A stretch of 64,000 bases of DNA from Gemmatirosa kalamazoonensis (lineage in GTDB: Bacteria > Gemmatimonadota > Gemmatimonadetes > Gemmatimonadales > Gemmatimonadaceae), in the NCBI RefSeq assembly GCF_000522985.1, contig NZ_CP007128.1:3456220-3520219 (forward strand), written 5' to 3'. Under the pieces are notes generated by a model. The model saw nothing but the letters and a program-made list of their open reading frames with translations, was not told where the DNA came from and did no database searches. A program made the position numbers and the translations under genes. Shown here piece by piece: positions 1,476 through 54,206 of the stretch (positions are counted from its first letter, which is position 1; the number at the start of each line of letters is the position of its first letter).

Positions 1476-2126
1476 TCAGGCGGAGCGTCGCCGGCGGACG
1501 ATGCCGAACGCCACGACGCCCGTGGCGACCAGCGCCCAGGTGGACGGCTCGGGCACCGTGGTACCCGGTGGGGTGACCCGCTGCGCGATGATCGGCGCGG
1601 CGAAGTAGATCGTGCACACGTCGCAGTTGCTCGTGCCGTCCCAGATGAAGTGTGCCGACGGAGAGATGTTGCCGAACGTGCCCCACGGGCCGGTGCCGTT
1701 CGGACCCTCGTCGGCGATCCCGAGCGGCGATCCGGCGAAGCTCCCCGATCGGAGGCTCCACTCCGTCGTGTTGGTCAGCAGCGACTGGGTGGTGTTCGCG
1801 AAGTGGAAGCCGCCAGTGAGAGAGAACTGGCCGATGAACGCACCCGGGCCGCCCGAGTTCGTGGCGACGATCTGCAGCCAGTAGTTCGTTCCCGGCGTGA
1901 GCGCCTGCGGGCCGAACGTCACGTCTGTCGGCCAGCTGTTGCCGTTCGCGCCCGGGATCGCGACGCCGAGGGTCGTGGCGGACGTGCCGAGGTACACCTG
2001 GAACGCATCGTCCATCGTGAGCGTTCCACTCAGCGACTGCGCACCTGCGGTCGCTGCGGAGAGCGAAAGCGCGGCGACGGCGACCGTCCTCAGCGTGTTG
2101 CTGCAGCGACTGAATCGTGAGAGCAT
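1476..2126 (-). CDS. PEP-CTERM sorting-domain secreted protein
   Basis: Protein of 216 aa. The start at 2126 was chosen because a strong GGGAGG site lies just upstream and a signal peptide (LRTVAVAALSLSAATAGAQS) begins directly after it. The C-terminus carries the tripartite PEP-CTERM signal: VPEPSTWAL, a hydrophobic helix (VATGVVAFGIV) and a basic tail (RRRRSA). In known systems such proteins are recognised by an exosortase (EpsH/XrtA) and sent to the envelope or the exopolysaccharide matrix; the exosortase is not in this window. The middle part is a Gly/Thr/Ser-rich beta-type domain with no motif I recognise. It probably forms a single-gene transcription unit, convergent with the preceding gene. 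Confidence 0.88.
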   Translation of the reverse strand: MLSRFSRCSNTLRTVAVAALSLSAATAGAQSLSGTLTMDDAFQVYLGTSATTLGVAIPGANGNSWPTDVTFGPQALTPGTNYWLQIVATNSGGPGAFIGQFSLTGGFHFANTTQSLLTNTTEWSLRSGSFAGSPLGIADEGPNGTGPWGTFGNISPSAHFIWDGTSNCDVCTIYFAAPIIAQRVTPPGTTVPEPSTWALVATGVVAFGIVRRRRSA

Positions 2127-2367
2127 GGCGGCGAGCCTCCCTGGAGAAGTGGAGAGCAGCACGGCGAACAACGCACGGAAGAACGCATGAGCCTCCTCGA
2201 GGCTCTCACTCATTCACGACGTGTGGCTCAGCTCGTCGCCGACGGCCCCTATATACGAGGCCCCGCCGGGCTCAGCAAGCAGCAACACCGCTCGGACCGC
2301 GTTTACGAGGACACGAAACGCGTTAGCTTCCTTGGGGTTCTGTTCGGGATCCCGCCAAGCCCCCGCC

Positions 2368-4968
2368 GTGCCGCGCCTGCAGCTTCCTCCCTCCACCGAC
2401 GCCCGTCTCAGCCGCCCGGCCGCCGCCGCGATCCGTGCGGCGATCCGGCTCGCCGGCGGCCGCGAGGTGTGCTTCGTCTGCAAGGTGGACGAGGAGGGGA
2501 CGGTGGCGAGCGCCCGCGTCGTCGCGCGCGGCGACGTGCGCAGCGTGCTCGCGCTCCCCGGGTTCGCCGAGCGCGGCGAGATGCTCGTGCACAACCACCC
2601 CAGCGGCCTGCTCGAGCCGTCGAACGCGGATCTCGAGGTCGCGGCGCGCGTGCACGGCAACGGCGTCGGCTTCGGCATCGTCGACAACGACGCGACGGAG
2701 CTGTACGTCGTCGTCGAGGTGCCGCCGGCGAAGACGACCGCCGACATCGATCCGGATTCGGTCGACGCGACGCTCGGTCCCGACGGGCCCATCGCGCGCC
2801 GCATGCGCCGCTACGAGGACCGGCCGAGCCAGCGCGCGATGGCCTCCGAGATCGCGCGCCTATACAACGACGGCGGCGTGGGGCTGCTGGAGGCGGGCAC
2901 CGGCGTCGGCAAGTCGCTCGGCTACCTCGTGCCCGCGCTGCGGTGGGCGGCCGCGAACGGCGAGCGCACGATCGTGTCGACGAACACGATCAACCTGCAG
3001 GAGCAGCTCGTCGGCAAGGACCTGCCGTTCCTCGCGGAGTCCCTCACCGACCAGAAGGTGCGCTTCGCGCTGCTGAAGGGGTGGCGCAACTACCTCTGCC
3101 TGCTGCGGCTGGAGCAGGCCCGCGGCGGCGGCCCGGCGCTGCTCGAGGAGGGGATGGCGCGCGAGCTGGGTGTGCTGGAGCAGTGGGCGGAGCGCACGAG
3201 CGACGGCTCGGTGAGCGACCTGCCGACGCCGCCGCGTCCCGAGGTGTGGGACGAGGTCTCGGCGGAGCCCGATCTCTGCCAGCGCATGAAGTGCCCGCAC
3301 TTCGACCGCTGCTTCCTCTTCAAGGCGCGGCAGAAGGCGGCGCAGGCCGACATCATCGTCGTGAACCACCATCTGCTGCTCTCCGACGTCGCCGTCAGGC
3401 GCGTGCAGCAGAACTGGGAGGACGCGGCCGTGCTGCCGGCGTACAAGCGCCTCGTCGTCGACGAGGGCCATCACCTCGAGGACGCCGCCGCCGCACACCT
3501 CGGCGCGTCGGTCACGCGGCGCTCGCTGCAGCGGCTGTTCGCGCGACTCGACCGCAAGGGGAAGGGCCTGTTGGGCGCGCTGATCGCGAAGCTGGCCGAG
3601 AAGTCGGACCTGCTCAGCACCGCGAGCCTCGACCTCGTGCAGGCGCGCCTCGTGCCCGCCGCGCACGCGTCGCGCGACAAGGCCGACCTGCTGTTCGACC
3701 TGCTGCACGCGTACCTCGAGCAGGCGGCGCAGCCGGTCGTGCGCCTAACGGACGCGTTCGCGCAGGACCCGGTGTGGGACGCCGGGCTTCGCGCCGCGCT
3801 CGACGATCTGCTGGGCGAGATCGAGCTGCTGCACGAGGGGCTGCGCCTCGTGCGCGAGCGACTGGAGTCCGACGAGAAACGACTGGAGGCGCTCGCCCCG
3901 CTGCTCGGCGAGCTGCGCGCGGTCGCGCGACGCCTGCAGACCGCGGGCGACGGCTTGGTGCGCGCGCTCCGTCCGGCCGACGGCACGCCGCCGAGCGTGC
4001 GGTGGATCGAGCTGCGCGGCAAGGAGCGCAACGTGGTCGTCACGTCGGTGCCGCTCGACCTCGCGCCGATCCTGCGCGAGGATCTGTTCAAGCGCGTGCA
4101 GACGGCGGTGATCACCAGCGCGACGCTGGCGACTCGTCCCGGGACTCGGGACTCGGGACCCGGGACTCGAATGCGGAGCCCCGGTCCCGAGTCCCGAGTC
4201 CCGAGTCCTGATGCGTTCCGCTTCCTCTCCGACCGGCTGGGACTCACGGCGCCCGAGTTCGAGCCGGCGACCGCGATCTATCCGTCGCCGTTCGAGTATC
4301 CGCGCCAGGCGCTGCTCGTCGTGCCGAGCGACACGCCGGCGCCCAACGTCGACGCGAGCGCGCACTTTCTGCACGTCGTGCGGCACGTGCTCGACGTCGC
4401 GACCGCATCGGACGGCGGCATGTTCGTGCTGTTCACCAGCCACCGTGAGCTGATGCGCGCGGCCGCCGAGCTGCGCGCGCGCGGCGCCGACCGGCGATGG
4501 CCGCTGCTCGTGCACGGCGAGGACACGCGCGACGCGCTTCTGAATCGATTCCGCGAGAGCGGCCGGGCGCTGCTCGTCGGCACGGCGTCGTTCTGGGAGG
4601 GCGTCGACGTGCCGGGCGACGCGCTGCGGGCGCTCGTCATCGCGAAGCTGCCGTTCCGCGTGCCGAGCGAGCCCGTCACCGCCGCGCAGTGCGAGGCGAT
4701 CGAGGCGCGCGGCGGCGACAGCTTCCGCGAGTACATGCTGCCGCACGCGTCGCTGCGGCTGAAGCAGGGCTTCGGGCGGCTCATCCGCACCGGCGTCGAC
4801 CGCGGGGTCGTCGTCATCTCCGACGTGCGGCTCGTCAGCAAGGGCTACGGCCGCGACCTGCTCGACGCGCTCCCCCCCGCGCGTCGGGTGCTCGCCCCGT
4901 GGGCACGGGCGCGAGCCGACGTCGAGTCGTTCTACGCGGCCCGCTCCGCAGCGGTCGGCGAGGACTGA
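2368..4968 (+). CDS. dinG: JAMM/RadC-like domain fused to a DinG/XPD-type Fe-S helicase
   Basis: Protein of 866 aa from a GTG at 2368; an upstream in-frame extension is low-complexity and was rejected. Residues about 15-125 form a JAMM (MPN+) domain as in RadC, with H75, H77, P78, S85 and D88 in the canonical HxHPx(6)SxxD layout. The rest is a superfamily-2 helicase: Walker A GTGVGKS (K182), four cysteines for an Fe-S cluster (C244, C304, C309, C315), DEGH box (365-368), SAT motif (584-586) and C-terminal motifs GTASFWEGVDVPG and QGFGRLIR. DinG and XPD proteins unwind 5'-3' and act on R-loops, G-quadruplexes or replication-repair intermediates. The JAMM fusion is unusual. About 27 residues encoded by a palindromic repeat (4131-4210) are inserted directly after the SAT motif. 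Confidence 0.9.
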   Translation: MPRLQLPPSTDARLSRPAAAAIRAAIRLAGGREVCFVCKVDEEGTVASARVVARGDVRSVLALPGFAERGEMLVHNHPSGLLEPSNADLEVAARVHGNGVGFGIVDNDATELYVVVEVPPAKTTADIDPDSVDATLGPDGPIARRMRRYEDRPSQRAMASEIARLYNDGGVGLLEAGTGVGKSLGYLVPALRWAAANGERTIVSTNTINLQEQLVGKDLPFLAESLTDQKVRFALLKGWRNYLCLLRLEQARGGGPALLEEGMARELGVLEQWAERTSDGSVSDLPTPPRPEVWDEVSAEPDLCQRMKCPHFDRCFLFKARQKAAQADIIVVNHHLLLSDVAVRRVQQNWEDAAVLPAYKRLVVDEGHHLEDAAAAHLGASVTRRSLQRLFARLDRKGKGLLGALIAKLAEKSDLLSTASLDLVQARLVPAAHASRDKADLLFDLLHAYLEQAAQPVVRLTDAFAQDPVWDAGLRAALDDLLGEIELLHEGLRLVRERLESDEKRLEALAPLLGELRAVARRLQTAGDGLVRALRPADGTPPSVRWIELRGKERNVVVTSVPLDLAPILREDLFKRVQTAVITSATLATRPGTRDSGPGTRMRSPGPESRVPSPDAFRFLSDRLGLTAPEFEPATAIYPSPFEYPRQALLVVPSDTPAPNVDASAHFLHVVRHVLDVATASDGGMFVLFTSHRELMRAAAELRARGADRRWPLLVHGEDTRDALLNRFRESGRALLVGTASFWEGVDVPGDALRALVIAKLPFRVPSEPVTAAQCEAIEARGGDSFREYMLPHASLRLKQGFGRLIRTGVDRGVVVISDVRLVSKGYGRDLLDALPPARRVLAPWARARADVESFYAARSAAVGED
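4139..4208. repeat. intragenic palindromic element of GGGACTC units, in frame
   Basis: The left arm (about 4141-4169) is tandem GGGACTC units; the right arm (about 4181-4208) is tandem GAGTCCC units; the loop is about 10 nt. The element has no stop in the gene frame and adds about 27 residues (including GTRDSGPGTR and PESRVPSPD) between the helicase SAT motif and the following FRFLSDRLGL segment. A near-identical peptide is encoded by a related element at 53284-53359 in an aldehyde dehydrogenase. Confidence 0.85.
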
Positions 4969-5031
4969 CGGGGCAGTCAGTCGATCGCCGAACCGGCGCC
5001 CCACGGCGCCGATCGCGTGCTGGGCTTCGGG

Positions 5032-5037
5032 TATACT
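5032..5037 (+). promoter_or_regulatory. possible -10 element (TATACT)
   Basis: TATACT lies 36 nt upstream of the CAP lipoprotein start, in an otherwise GC-rich gap. The same hexamer serves the tRNA-fMet promoter at 39985. No convincing -35 is visible here. Confidence 0.35.
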
Positions 5038-5072
5038 TCGGGTACCCACCGCCTCCCCCCGCAGCCCCGCCG

Positions 5073-5663
5073 ATGCAGCTCTCCTCCCGTCTGCTCGCGG
5101 CCTTCGCCGCGCTCGCGCTCGTCGCCGCCTGTTCCGACTCGCCGGTCGCTCCCGACGCCACCGCCGACGCTCCCGCCGCCGTCAAGCCGTCCGCATCGCT
5201 GTCCGTCGCCCGCACCGTGGCCGTCACCGACTGTGCCGGCGCGACGGTGTACCTCTCGGCCGACGAGAAGCGGACGCTCGACCTGCACAACGCCCAGCGC
5301 ACGAAGAGCGGGCTCCGAACTTTCTGCGTCGATGCCAAGCTCACCGCCGCGGCGCGGTCGCACTCGAACGAGATGATCGACCTGAACTACTTCTCGCACA
5401 GCTCGTACGACGGCACCGCGTTCAACGTGCGCGTGGGGAGCTTCGGCTACACGCCGTACACGGCGCTGGCCGAGAACATCGCGCTCGGCAGCGGGACGTA
5501 CGGGGCGCCGGACGCGATCTTCACGAACTGGATGAACAGTGCCGGGCACCGCGCGAACATCCTGAACGGCACGCTCCGCCAGATCGGAATCGGCGTGAGC
5601 CTCGGGACCTACCAGGGTTACACCGGCGTGCGCATGTACACCGTGGATTTCGGCACGCGTTAG
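5073..5663 (+). CDS. CAP (SCP/PR-1) domain lipoprotein
   Basis: Protein of 196 aa. The N-terminus is a lipoprotein signal with lipobox LVAAC, so the mature protein should be lipid-anchored. Residues about 60-196 form a CAP/SCP domain: LDLHNAQRTKSGL, a SHSNEM helix, YFSHSSYDG, LAENIALGSG, and a WMNSAGHRANILNG motif followed by the terminal beta strands. The His and Glu residues of the CAP cavity are present. Bacterial CAP proteins (YkwD-like) are common in the envelope and their activity is poorly defined. It is flanked by helicase and hydrolase genes on the same strand with no clear functional link. Confidence 0.92.
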   Translation: MQLSSRLLAAFAALALVAACSDSPVAPDATADAPAAVKPSASLSVARTVAVTDCAGATVYLSADEKRTLDLHNAQRTKSGLRTFCVDAKLTAAARSHSNEMIDLNYFSHSSYDGTAFNVRVGSFGYTPYTALAENIALGSGTYGAPDAIFTNWMNSAGHRANILNGTLRQIGIGVSLGTYQGYTGVRMYTVDFGTR

Positions 5664-7312: not shown

Positions 7313-7399
7313 AAGAGGGCAGGAGGGCAGGAGGGCAAAGAGGGCAGGAGAGTCATCGGCTCTCCTGCCCTCTTTGCGCTCCTGCCCTCCTGCCCTCTC
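7313..7399. repeat. hairpin of AGGAGGGC units between convergent genes
   Basis: Two 40-nt arms (7313-7352 and 7360-7399) match at 38 positions around a 7-nt loop. Each arm is a near-tandem array of an 8-bp unit (AGGAGGGC). The element begins 1 nt after one stop codon and ends 2 nt before the stop codon of the convergent lexA gene, so it is placed as a bidirectional terminator. There is no T-run. Confidence 0.85.
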
Positions 7400-13068: not shown

Positions 13069-13142
13069 GACGGGTGAAGCGGGGAGATCGGGAGCTGCCG
13101 AACGTAAACCAGAAGAATAGCCGGTTCGTCACCGGAACCCAT

Positions 13143-13212
13143 GGCTGCGTGGCTGCGTAGCTGCGTAGCTCCGTGTGACTCCGGCGCTTACGCAGCCACG
13201 CAGCCACGCAGT
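13143..13212. repeat. hairpin of CTGCGTGG units after purH
   Basis: The left arm (about 13143-13170) is made of CTGCGTGG/CTGCGTAG units. The right arm (13187-13212) is the reverse complement with one or two mismatches. It starts 12 nt after the purH stop on the minus strand. The same unit is used at 51751-51813. Confidence 0.8.
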
Positions 13213-15512: not shown

Positions 15513-16081
15513 GACGCGCTCCCCCGCCACGCGAGCACGCGATCCACCGCGGCGTCGAGCGTGGTGTTCAGCGTGAACTCGTCGCGCGCGCGCTGCTGGT
15601 CGAGCCACTTCGTGTCGCGCGACGGCACGAGCACGCCGAGGCCGCCGAGTCGCCGCGCCGGCTCCACGTCGCGCAGCTTGTCGCCCACGTAGGCCGAACG
15701 GGCGAGGTCGATGCCGTGCTCCGCCGCGGCGCGCTCGTACAGCGCGGTGCCCGGCTTGCGGCACGCGCAGGGTCCGGTCACCTCGGGGAGGTGTGGGCAG
15801 AAGTAGCTCGCGTCGAGCCGCGCCCCGCCGGTGCCCAACAGCTCCCCGACGCGCGCCTCGACGCGCCGGTAGTCGTCTTCGGTGAGCATGCCGCGCGCGA
15901 TGCCGGACTGGTTCGTGACCACGATGGCGAGCCACCCGGCCTGGTTGATTCGCCGCACCGCGCCCGCCGCGCCGGGGCGGAGGACGACCTTCGTGGGATC
16001 GGCGATGTAGTGCACGTCGTCGATCAGCGTGCCGTCGCGGTCGAAGAACACCGCCCGGCGGCCGGCTCCGTCGTCGCTCAT
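15509..16081 (-). CDS. gmhB: D-glycero-D-manno-heptose-1,7-bisphosphate 7-phosphatase
   Basis: Protein of 190 aa. HAD-IIIA fold with the DxD motif FFDRDGTLIDD near the N-terminus, TNQSGIARG as motif II, and the GmhB zinc loop CPHLP...GPCACRKP followed by YVGDKLRDVEPA as motif IV. GmhB removes the C7 phosphate in ADP-heptose synthesis for LPS; close relatives can act as histidinol-phosphatases. No other heptose genes are nearby. It overlaps the preceding lipoprotein gene (ATGA) and the following purN (GTGA), so translation is probably coupled. Confidence 0.9.
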   Translation of the reverse strand: MSDDGAGRRAVFFDRDGTLIDDVHYIADPTKVVLRPGAAGAVRRINQAGWLAIVVTNQSGIARGMLTEDDYRRVEARVGELLGTGGARLDASYFCPHLPEVTGPCACRKPGTALYERAAAEHGIDLARSAYVGDKLRDVEPARRLGGLGVLVPSRDTKWLDQQRARDEFTLNTTLDAAVDRVLAWRGSAS

Positions 16082-16094
16082 CGCGGCCGGCCCG

Positions 16095-16220
16095 GCACGC
16101 GGCGCGCCGTATCGTTGGGCACGCGCCGCGTCGTATCGTTAGGCACCCGGCGCGTCGTGTCGTTGGGCACCCGGCGCGTCGTGTCGTTGGGCACCCGGCG
16201 CGTCGTATCGCCCGGCGCGC
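16095..16220. repeat. 24-bp tandem repeat coding TTRRVPND
   Basis: About five copies of a 24-bp unit (CGTCGTATCGTTGGGCACCC plus GGCG), differing at one or two bases, lie near the 3' end of the lipoprotein gene. On the minus strand each codes the octapeptide TTRRVPND. One copy has GTTAGGC where the others have GTTGGGC. Confidence 0.9.
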
Positions 16221-16550
16221 GGCGCGTGCTGTCCGGCGGCGGCTCGGCCTTCGGCGTGGTGAACTGGCGCTCGCTCAGCGCGAGCGTGACGCCGGAGACC
16301 GAGCGCTGCCCGCTTGCCGACACGCGGTAGAACGCGTTCGGCCGCAGCGGCTGGCGAAGCACGATCACGATGTCGGTGGACGGCGACGGACGGCTCGGCA
16401 CCGGCGGCGGTGCGGGCGGGCGGCCGCGCGTCGAGTCGCGGCGCGCCGCGGCGATGCTGTCGCGGCGCGCGCGCGCCGTGTCGACCCGCGGAGCGGCGGG
16501 CGCTCGACGCGTCGTGTCGCGCGCGGTCCCGGCGCGGGCGATCGAGTCGG

Positions 16551-20372: not shown

Positions 20373-20463
20373 CGAGGGCAGGAGGGCAGGAGGGCAAGAG
20401 GGCAGGAGGGCAGGAGGGCTGTCGACTCTCCTGCCCTCCTGCCCTCCTGCCCTCTTGCCCTCG
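20373..20463. repeat. hairpin of AGGAGGGC units upstream of valS
   Basis: The left arm (20373-20419) and right arm (20428-20463) are arrays of the same 8-bp unit as at 7313-7399, and pair over about 30 bp. On the minus strand it begins 10 nt after the stop of the small gene at 20473-20733 and ends 14 nt before the valS start, so it may act as a terminator or as a valS leader structure. Confidence 0.8.
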
Positions 20464-20800: not shown

Positions 20801-20875
20801 GCGAGCGTGGAGCGCGGAGCGGGGAGCGTGGAGACCGAATCGGCTCCACGCTCCCCGCTCCGCGCTCCGCGCTCG
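20801..20875. repeat. hairpin of GGAGCGN units after the BON gene
   Basis: Two 33-nt arms (20801-20833 and 20843-20875) match at 32 positions around a 9-nt loop. Each arm is a tandem of the 7-bp unit GGAGCGN. The right arm ends 1 nt from the stop codon of the BON-domain gene. Confidence 0.85.
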
Positions 20876-51750: not shown

Positions 51751-51813
51751 CGCTGCGTGGCTGCGTCGCTGCGTAACGGCACGCAGCAGACGCAGCGACG
51801 CAGCCACGCAGCG
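51751..51813. repeat. perfect 24-bp-stem hairpin of CTGCGTGG units after deoC
   Basis: Arms at 51751-51774 and 51790-51813 are perfect reverse complements, made of CTGCGTGG/CTGCGTCG units, with a 15-nt loop. It starts 5 nt after the deoC stop and ends 8 nt before the aldehyde dehydrogenase start. Confidence 0.9.
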
Positions 51814-51821
51814 AACACGAC

Positions 51822-54206
51822 ATGACTACGGTCGCAGAGATCTTCGAGACCATGGAGTACGGGCCGGCGCCCGAGGCGGACGCGCCCGTTAGGCAGTGGC
51901 TCCAGGCGCACGACGGGAAGTTCGGGCAGTACGTGAACGGCCGCTGGACCGACGTCGACGACGCGCGGCTGTTCGACGTGCAGGAGCCGGCGAACGGCAA
52001 GCGGCTCGCACGCGTGTCGCAGGGCAACGAGGCCGACGTGGACGCGGCGGTGCAGGCGGCGCGCGCCGCGCTGCCGAAGTGGAAGGCGTTGGGCGGCCAT
52101 GCGCGCGCCCGCTACCTGTACGCGCTCGCCCGCGCGGTGCAGAAGCACTCGCGGCTGCTCGCCGTGCTGGAGACGATGGACAACGGGAAGTCCATCCGCG
52201 AGACGCGCGACATCGACATCCCGCTCGTGGCGCGGCACTTCTACCACCACGCCGGGTGGGCGCAGCTGCTGGAGTCGGAGTTCGCGGGCTACGAGGGCGC
52301 GGGCGTCGTGGGGCAGATCATCCCGTGGAACTTCCCGCTGCTCATGCTCGCGTGGAAGGTCGCGCCCGCGCTCGCCGCCGGCTGCACGGTGGTGCTGAAG
52401 CCGGCCGAGTTCACGCCGATGACGGCGCTCGCGTTCGCCGAGCTGGCGCACGAGGTGGGGCTGCCTAACGGCGTGCTGAACATCGTCACCGGCGACGGCG
52501 AGACGGGCAAGCTGCTCGTCGCGCACGAGGGCGTCGACAAGCTCGCGTTCACCGGATCGACCGAGGTGGGACGCATCATCCGGAAGGCGACGGCGGGGAG
52601 CGGCAAGAAGCTGTCGCTGGAGCTGGGCGGCAAAAGCCCGTTCATCGTGTTCGACGACGCGGACCTCGACAGCGTCGTCGAGGGCGTGGTCGACGCGATC
52701 TGGTTCAACCAGGGGCAGGTGTGCTGCGCCGGCTCGCGGCTGCTGGTGCAGGAGGGCGTCGCCGACCGCCTGTACGAGAAGCTGCGCGCGCGCATGGAGC
52801 GCCTGCGGCTCGGCAACCCGCTCGACAAGGCGGTGGACATCGGCGCCATCGTCGCCCCGGTGCAGCTCGAGCGCATCCGCGGACTCGTTGAGCAGGGACG
52901 CGAGGAGGGCGCGCAGATGTGGCAGCCGTCGTGGGCGTGCCCGGCGGAAGGATGCTTCTACCCGCCGACGCTGTTCACCGACGTGAGCCCGTCGGCGACG
53001 ATCGCCCAGGTGGAGATCTTCGGCCCCGTGCTCGTCGCGATGACGTTCCGCACGCCCGGCGAGGCGGTGTCGCTGGCGAACAACACGCCGTACGGGCTCG
53101 CCGCGAGCGTGTGGAGCGAGAACATCAACCTCGCGCTCGACGTCGCGCCGAAGCTGAAGTGCGGCGTGGTCTGGGTGAACTCCACGAACCTGTTCGACGC
53201 CGCGGCGGGATTCGGCGGCTATCGCGAGTCGGGCTTCGGGCGCGAGGGCGGGCGGGAAGGGATGTGGGAGTATCTGAAGCCTGCCGGGACTCGGGACCCG
53301 GGACCCGGGACTCGGGAGTCCGCAGCCCCGAGTCCCGAGTCCCGAGTCCCGAGTCCCGACGGTCTACCGCCGATCGACCGAACTCCCAAGCTCTATGTCG
53401 GCGGCAAGCAGGCACGTCCCGATTCGGGCTACAGCCGGCGGGTGCTCGGCGCGGACGGGCGTGTGCTCGGCGCCGTCGGCGAGGGGAACCGCAAGGATCT
53501 GCGCAACGCCGTGGAGGCCGCGCACAAGGCGGCAGGGTGGGCGAAGACGAGCGGCCACGCGAAGGCGCAGATCCTCTACTACACGGCCGAGAACCTCGCC
53601 GCGCGCGCCGACGAGTTCGCGCGCCGCATCGACGACCTGACCGGCCGCGGCGACGGGCGCGCGGAGATCGACGCGGCGGTGTCGCGGCTGTTCACGTACG
53701 CGGCGTGGGCCGACAAGTACGACGGTCTCGTGCACGACGTGCCGATCCGTGGCGTCGCGCTCGCGATGAACGAGCCGATCGGGGTCGTCGGCGTCGCGTG
53801 CCCGGACGAGGCGCCGCTGCTCGGCTTCGTGTCGCTCGTCGCGCCGCTCGTCGCCACCGGCAACACGGTGATCGCGATCCCGTCGGAGAAGTACCCGCTC
53901 GCGGCGACGGACTTCTACGGAGTGCTCGACACGAGCGACGTGCCGGGTGGCGTCATCAACATCGTCACCGGCGAGCGCGACTCGCTCGCGAAGACGCTGG
54001 CCGAGCACGACGACGTGGACGCGATCTGGTACTTCGGTCCGCGCGAGGGCGCGAAGGCCGTCGAGCTGGCGTCCGCGTCGAACATGAAGCGCACGTGGAC
54101 GGAGTGGACGCCGCGTGCGTGGCGCGACGCGCGCGTGGCCGAGGGGCGCGAGTTCCTGCGGCAGGCGACCCAGGTCAAGAACGTGTGGATCCCGTACGGC
54201 GAGTGA
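51822..54206 (+). CDS. two-domain aldehyde dehydrogenase (active plus degenerate ALDH domain)
   Basis: Protein of 794 aa. Residues 1-485 are a full ALDH: IIPWNFPLLMLAWKVAPALA, FTGSTEVGRIIRKATAGSG, KLSLELGGKSPFIVF (general-base Glu) and WFNQGQVCCAGSRL with C301 as nucleophile. Residues about 488-513 are coded by a palindromic repeat. Residues 520-794 are a second ALDH-like domain (LYVGGKQARPDSGYSRRVLG, NEPIGVVGVACPDEAPLLG, GGVINIVTG) that lacks the catalytic-Cys part and ends early. Similar fused proteins exist next to deoC in other phyla. The likely substrate is acetaldehyde from DeoC. Confidence 0.9.
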   Translation: MTTVAEIFETMEYGPAPEADAPVRQWLQAHDGKFGQYVNGRWTDVDDARLFDVQEPANGKRLARVSQGNEADVDAAVQAARAALPKWKALGGHARARYLYALARAVQKHSRLLAVLETMDNGKSIRETRDIDIPLVARHFYHHAGWAQLLESEFAGYEGAGVVGQIIPWNFPLLMLAWKVAPALAAGCTVVLKPAEFTPMTALAFAELAHEVGLPNGVLNIVTGDGETGKLLVAHEGVDKLAFTGSTEVGRIIRKATAGSGKKLSLELGGKSPFIVFDDADLDSVVEGVVDAIWFNQGQVCCAGSRLLVQEGVADRLYEKLRARMERLRLGNPLDKAVDIGAIVAPVQLERIRGLVEQGREEGAQMWQPSWACPAEGCFYPPTLFTDVSPSATIAQVEIFGPVLVAMTFRTPGEAVSLANNTPYGLAASVWSENINLALDVAPKLKCGVVWVNSTNLFDAAAGFGGYRESGFGREGGREGMWEYLKPAGTRDPGPGTRESAAPSPESRVPSPDGLPPIDRTPKLYVGGKQARPDSGYSRRVLGADGRVLGAVGEGNRKDLRNAVEAAHKAAGWAKTSGHAKAQILYYTAENLAARADEFARRIDDLTGRGDGRAEIDAAVSRLFTYAAWADKYDGLVHDVPIRGVALAMNEPIGVVGVACPDEAPLLGFVSLVAPLVATGNTVIAIPSEKYPLAATDFYGVLDTSDVPGGVINIVTGERDSLAKTLAEHDDVDAIWYFGPREGAKAVELASASNMKRTWTEWTPRAWRDARVAEGREFLRQATQVKNVWIPYGE
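53284..53359. repeat. intragenic palindromic element of GGGACTC units, in frame
   Basis: The left arm holds GGGACTC/GGGACCC units (53286-53319) and the right arm GAGTCCC units (53327-53358), with a short loop. It lies between the two ALDH domains and adds a peptide (GTRDPGPGTRES, then SPESRVPSPDG) close to that encoded at 4139-4208 in the helicase. Confidence 0.85.

Follow-up and report, generated by a model that had tools for sequence, protein, structure and literature searches.

The window analyzed here, a stretch of 64,000 nucleotides, comes from a contig of 5,311,527 bp in the 7.48-Mb genome of Gemmatirosa kalamazoonensis. On its plus strand, from position 2368 to 4968 and with alternative starts upstream to 2221, lies a gene for a helicase with an N-terminal RadC-like JAB domain, and inside this gene, in frame, sits a GGGACTC palindromic element whose periodic part runs from 4140 to 4208. 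The protein has DEAD and Helicase_C_2 (PF13307, 4e-44) domains, and its nearest solved structure is E. coli DinG (6fwr, 8e-44); the Helicase_C_2 domain and the similarity to DinG identify it as a DinG/XPD-type helicase. The JAB domain (PF04002, window positions 2368 to 2850) is an unusual partner for a helicase of this type.

The palindrome consists of a G-rich 5′ arm, CGGGACTCGGGACTCGGGACCCGGG, at 4140 to 4164 and a C-rich 3′ arm, CCCCGGTCCCGAGTCCCGAGTCCCG, at 4179 to 4203 (both given on the plus strand), separated by a loop at 4165 to 4178 whose sequence has drifted away from the GGGAGTCCGCAGCCCC loop type seen in another copy at 53285 to 53359. The arms are 25 nt each and 96% complementary and thus form a near-perfect palindrome, which bears out the GGGACTC-type palindrome that the initial annotation had placed at 4139 to 4208. 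Folded as single-stranded DNA, the element reaches −36.8 kcal/mol (z = −6.6), and none of 200 shuffled sequences was equally stable. Pairs of the heptamer occur 14 times in the 64-kb window, compared to 1.1 expected, and comparison of the element with Rfam gave nothing but sub-threshold chance matches of the miRNA type. By protein alignment the inserted stretch extends from about 4134 to 4211, or ~26 codons, close to the roughly 27 residues first proposed to follow the SAT motif without a stop, and the helicase frame is indeed open across it (...SATLATR-PGTRDSGPGTRMRSPGPESRVPSP-DAFRFL). The GGGACTC unit contains no stop codon in any of the six frames (GTRDSGL or ESRVPSP), since a 7-nt period does not divide into whole codons and each frame runs through identical stop-free codons; copies of suitable length can therefore be translated through.

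A protein search of relatives yielded 30 loci, and the insertion site is readable in 27 orthologues, not counting the window's own gene. None of these 27 carries the element, and none has the same stretch at the protein level. The majority show a short link in which SATLAxxG leads straight to FDFL, so that the earlier statement that family proteins continue directly from SATL is correct for the family at large, but not for the closest relatives: the four closest informative ones (80, 77, 70, and 69% identity) have non-homologous extensions here that span ~8 to 40 residues. Because the loops of these four are long and unrelated, the site appears from the alignment to be a loop tolerant of changes in length, and the element would have entered a loop that was already length-variable or taken the place of part of it. 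An AlphaFold model built from 28 sequences (mean pLDDT, 84; pTM, 0.82) falls below a pLDDT of 50 exactly at residues 591 to 611, between a strand (579 to 584) and a helix (614 to 623), and the insert is thus most likely a disordered loop. The model, together with the orthologues that lack the stretch and the sister copies described below, agrees with the initial suggestion of an insertion tolerated in an exposed loop.

The 7.5-Mb genome has about 85 GGGACTC palindromes, the element in the helicase gene among them; they were located by means of a covariance model and patterns and then measured, a procedure that may overlook copies whose units are not clean. An 18-mer of the unit has 436 matches in this genome, compared to 0 for the reversed pattern; the same 18-mer is absent from 93 of the 99 genomes searched, and the few other positives have 1 to 5 matches each. 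The ends of family members are mostly constant, with TC before the first GGGACTC and GA after the last GAGTCCC, while array lengths vary and several loop types recur. Both orientations of the unit are present in 81 of 86 clusters. Direct matches at the ends of the 85 elements are as frequent as expected from shuffling, i.e., there is no target-site duplication of the kind that defines classical MITEs.

Fifty of 89 arrays lie within predicted genes, a fraction that holds for these elements only, since the loci were selected for containing them. The gene calls come from a purpose-made codon-usage gene finder, with Pfam support for a subset. All 33 deep intragenic arrays, meaning those with a clear coding signal on either side joined by an open frame, keep the reading frame, compared to the one in three expected by chance. 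Same-strand, frame-shifted cases occur at gene junctions, and in the five pairs with Pfam matches on both sides the two are different genes; we therefore rejected the possibility that frame-shifting insertions are disguised as split genes, as the testable cases are distinct neighboring genes. The hosts of in-frame copies include isoleucyl-tRNA synthetase (IleRS), ClpB, gamma-glutamyltranspeptidase (GGT), an AcrB-type pump, an Lhr-type helicase, an enzyme of the acetolactate-synthase type, a homocysteine methyltransferase-MTHFR fusion, an aldehyde dehydrogenase fusion, and NRPS adenylation domains. The in-frame inserts lie mostly between Pfam domains. The second GGGACTC palindrome in the window, at 53285 to 53359, is also in frame, between the two aldehyde dehydrogenase domains of the gene at 51822 to 54206.

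Some of these loci have features of their own. The IleRS gene (L137, G000:C2:3544200-3549300, gene 1827-5099) holds two in-frame palindromes, one of GGGACTC at 2531 to 2597 and one of a different unit, GAGCGTG, at 3716 to 3785. In GGT (L114, G000:C2:1384200-1389300, gene 2005-3798) the in-frame element lies shortly before a THLSIVD segment that resembles the self-processing site. Four NRPS adenylation domains (L162 to L165, G000:C4:594000-640700) carry an element at the identical point before YRTGD; three of the four copies have a common loop type, probably as a result of module conversion, and the fourth has another loop. At L168 (G000:C4:817700-822800), the element at 2530 to 2640 sits midway in a 13-nt inverted repeat of the host, AACCGCAGAGG/CCTCTGCGGTT, and is thus probably inside a terminator hairpin.

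Only one member of the GGGACTC family has a gene between its arms. At G000:C2:2342537-2343122, eight GGGACTC units and eight GAGTCCC units enclose ~470 nt encoding an S23/23S_rRNA_IVP four-helix-bundle protein (PF05635) related to PDB 2gsc. The element in the helicase gene therefore shares its unit with the arrays around an S23 gene of this genome. Eight of the nine PF05635 genes present here have inverted arrays or repeats on both sides, with a unit particular to each gene (GGGCAGGA, GAGCGTG, TGCGTGGC, and others besides GGGACTC). Among 100 small control genes the framing score did not exceed 17, except for the GGGACTC-framed S23 gene itself, which was present in the control set.

The arrangement extends beyond this genome. 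Inverted arms are present at all 18 S23 loci examined in relatives, which were picked from the best PF05635 matches and overlap in part with the earlier set, so that the two samples cannot count as independent. A scan of GTDB genomes from many phyla found inverted arms at 60 of the 74 S23 genes with enough flanking sequence, compared to 0 of 131 shifted positions; the scan retained the loci nearest to Gemmatimonadota sequences, and its framing rate of 81% may not hold for other S23 proteins. The other 14 genes of the 74 have no detectable inverted arrays. In the 60 framed genes the period is mostly 7 and the 5′ arm is G-rich in 57, and the arms have in common, beyond composition, the heptamer consensus GGRNYAG. 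Arms from mismatched pairs scored as inverted in 11 of 220 cases, as expected if arms are alike across species. Our literature search found no published description of the repeat sequences themselves and no paper linking S23 genes with inverted heptamer arrays, although subscription journals and preprints were largely beyond its reach and an earlier description is possible.

The arm units of three other S23 elements also recur as gene-less palindromes. Five such sister-family palindromes lie in the window, all of them intergenic: two of GGGCAGGA at 7315 to 7397 and 20374 to 20454 (S23 element G000:C3:1007607), one of GAGCGTG at 20803 to 20854 (S23 element G000:C2:598039), and two of TGCGTGGC at 13142 to 13211 and 51752 to 51812 (S23 element G000:C2:338942). 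Across 460 kb of this genome, these three units form 35 clusters, 24 of which are inverted pairs, compared to an average of 0 to 0.6 clusters for permuted units. In a prospective test, the unit forming the arms of an S23 gene of a different genome, G062, gave 158 matches in that genome and 0 in 11 others, including a congener. The gene-less GGGACTC copies are not simple internal deletions of the GGGACTC-framed S23 element, since their loops are diverse and unlike the element's interior.

One S23 locus could be followed through 18 genomes of a genus. The element is present in three of them (G018, G103, and G099), while six congeners have both flanks without it, and the S23 gene and its arms thus behave as a single discrete insertion; this empty-site case is a single locus, and its margins are blurred by interspecies divergence. 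Palindromes of the element's two arms are confined to the three carriers among the 18 genomes. In G099 (L322) the S23 gene is reversed relative to the flanks compared to G018 and G103, with the arms unmoved. A further genome, G107 (L323), has a different, unrelated palindrome at this intergenic site, hinting that the site is a hot spot.

We consider it likely that the stretch in the helicase gene is a non-autonomous copy of a mobile, S23-linked inverted-array element that spread in trans and was then filtered by selection. From the matching of units and the framing of S23 genes we infer that S23 drives the movement, and by the following route of copying. The S23 protein would recognize its own array, as DNA or as an RNA hairpin, and would promote the copying of arrays to new sites in trans, making use of host enzymes. 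Selection would then purge copies that break the frame or the folded core and would spare those that landed in a loop or linker, as in the SAT-F loop of the helicase; this would account for the surviving intragenic copies being in frame and in loops. Host hairpin processing, e.g., by RNase III as in the 23S rRNA intervening sequence (IVS) of Coxiella (PMC4990558), may supply the chemistry.

A different account is that an unrecognized conventional transposase moves the palindromes as ordinary MITEs and that the S23 genes are mere cargo, passengers between the arms. Dispersed, palindromic, gene-less copies are typical of MITEs, and we know of no catalytic motif in S23 and no catalytic activity. 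The lack of target-site duplications speaks against this account, as do searches for Y1 transposase (PF01797) and reverse transcriptase (PF00078), each with 0 matches in this genome compared to 5 and 3 positives, respectively, in 14 control genomes. Furthermore, an association of S23 with arrays across phyla, in which the unit differs from copy to copy, is not expected for passengers of unrelated transposons, and we regard the account as unlikely. It seems decidedly improbable that the arrays are chiefly regulatory or structural, as hairpins or G-quadruplexes, with S23 binding or silencing them instead of moving them. The G-rich heptameric repeats of Xanthomonas and Nostoc do form G-quadruplexes in vitro (PMC4692102), and many copies here lie at gene ends, but spreading accounts better for the copies that lie in the coding sequence of unrelated enzymes, for insertions present in some genomes and absent from others, and for units specific to a species. 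Growth in place, whereby slippage and the repair of hairpins added heptamers to a variable loop without any insertion, would suit the long and unrelated loops of the four closest informative relatives and the differing repeat numbers among copies, but it is highly improbable in view of a unit, ends, and several loop types that are common to ~85 unrelated places and nearly absent in relatives, and of identical inverted pairs everywhere, which slippage is not expected to produce.

The S23-linked mobile element that we favor has partial counterparts among known systems. The Rickettsia palindromic elements (RPEs) (Ogata 2000, 2002), as described in the excerpts available of PMC10969869 and PMC6649704, are palindromic selfish DNA found in frame in many unrelated protein genes. 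Like them, the GGGACTC palindromes, with all 33 deep copies in frame, occupy unrelated open reading frames whose proteins tolerate them. The RPEs of these excerpts are ~150 bp long and are not heptamer arrays, compared to ~70 nt for the element in the window, a distinction of length and build. The excerpts give no partner protein for RPEs, whereas the GGGACTC unit is linked to S23 and is stop-free in six frames.

Tandem 7-nt units dispersed genome-wide are also known from Xanthomonas (GGGAATC), Nostoc (GGGGAYT), and Beggiatoaceae (TAACTGA) (PMC4692102, PMC4679880). The units of Xanthomonas and Nostoc are G-rich, as is the unit here, and inverted pairs, which are frequent in Xanthomonas, are found here as well (PMC4692102). 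The repeats of all three groups are reported to be mostly intergenic (PMC4692102, PMC4679880), and those of Xanthomonas and Nostoc to be generally without mobile-element association (PMC4692102), whereas here about half of the arrays lie within genes, the deep ones in frame. For the Beggiatoaceae repeats, the author raised the possibility that the mobile element is a protein that binds the repeat (PMC4679880); S23 is mentioned in neither paper.

The Coxiella IVS, according to the part of PMC4990558 available, has an S23 gene within an inverted-repeat stem, and mobility has been suggested for it. Three tandem GACAGAT heptamers lie upstream of its S23 open reading frame, vary in number among strains, and are treated there as a local feature. 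The S23 gene in an inverted-repeat stem with heptamers nearby is thus common to both systems, but the IVS sits in rRNA, and that part of the paper does not describe dispersed gene-less copies. The element in the window lies in a protein gene and is itself not a 23S rRNA IVS.

REP/RAYT systems resemble the elements described here in having a gene framed by inverted palindromes together with dispersed gene-less palindromes in one genome. They differ in that RAYT is a Y1 transposase, of which this genome has none; the partner here is a four-helix-bundle protein, and the arms are tandem arrays. The S23 family is related to Avd of diversity-generating retroelements, but the reverse transcriptase of those retroelements has no counterpart here (no PF00078 match in this genome). 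We describe the S23-linked elements as REP- and RPE-like and see a genuine possibility that they form a new class.

A broader proposal, which we put forward tentatively as a serious possibility, is that S23/IVP genes act in trans as the core component of a class of mobile elements found throughout bacteria, one that uses no known transposase or reverse transcriptase, is bounded by inverted heptamer arrays of the GGRNYAG consensus, and spreads as gene-less copies. Such a class would explain the orphan heptamers of Xanthomonas, Nostoc, Beggiatoaceae, and the Coxiella IVS; in G. kalamazoonensis, it would have altered dozens of proteins while preserving their frame. Palindromes lying in frame within protein genes have been described in Rickettsia, but the literature examined identifies no mover for them or for the heptamer repeats; the repeat unit here singles out one testable partner, the S23 protein, a widespread protein that to our knowledge has so far been assigned no function. 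If S23 mobilizes hairpins, a new class of mobile elements becomes testable, as does the origin of several families of orphan repeats. The genome is also a natural experiment in how proteins, IleRS among them, absorb foreign loops.

Two further repeat arrangements were observed. Three loci from two other genera (L169, L170, and L171; G069 and G027) have GGGACTC-type inverted arrays around a conserved core of ~60 nt, CGGCCGGGA.GCTAT.ACCG...TCCCGGCCGAG. In the window, six 24-nt tandem repeats of the GTTGGGCACCCGGCGCGTCGTGTC type lie at a gene boundary, at positions 16070 to 16257.
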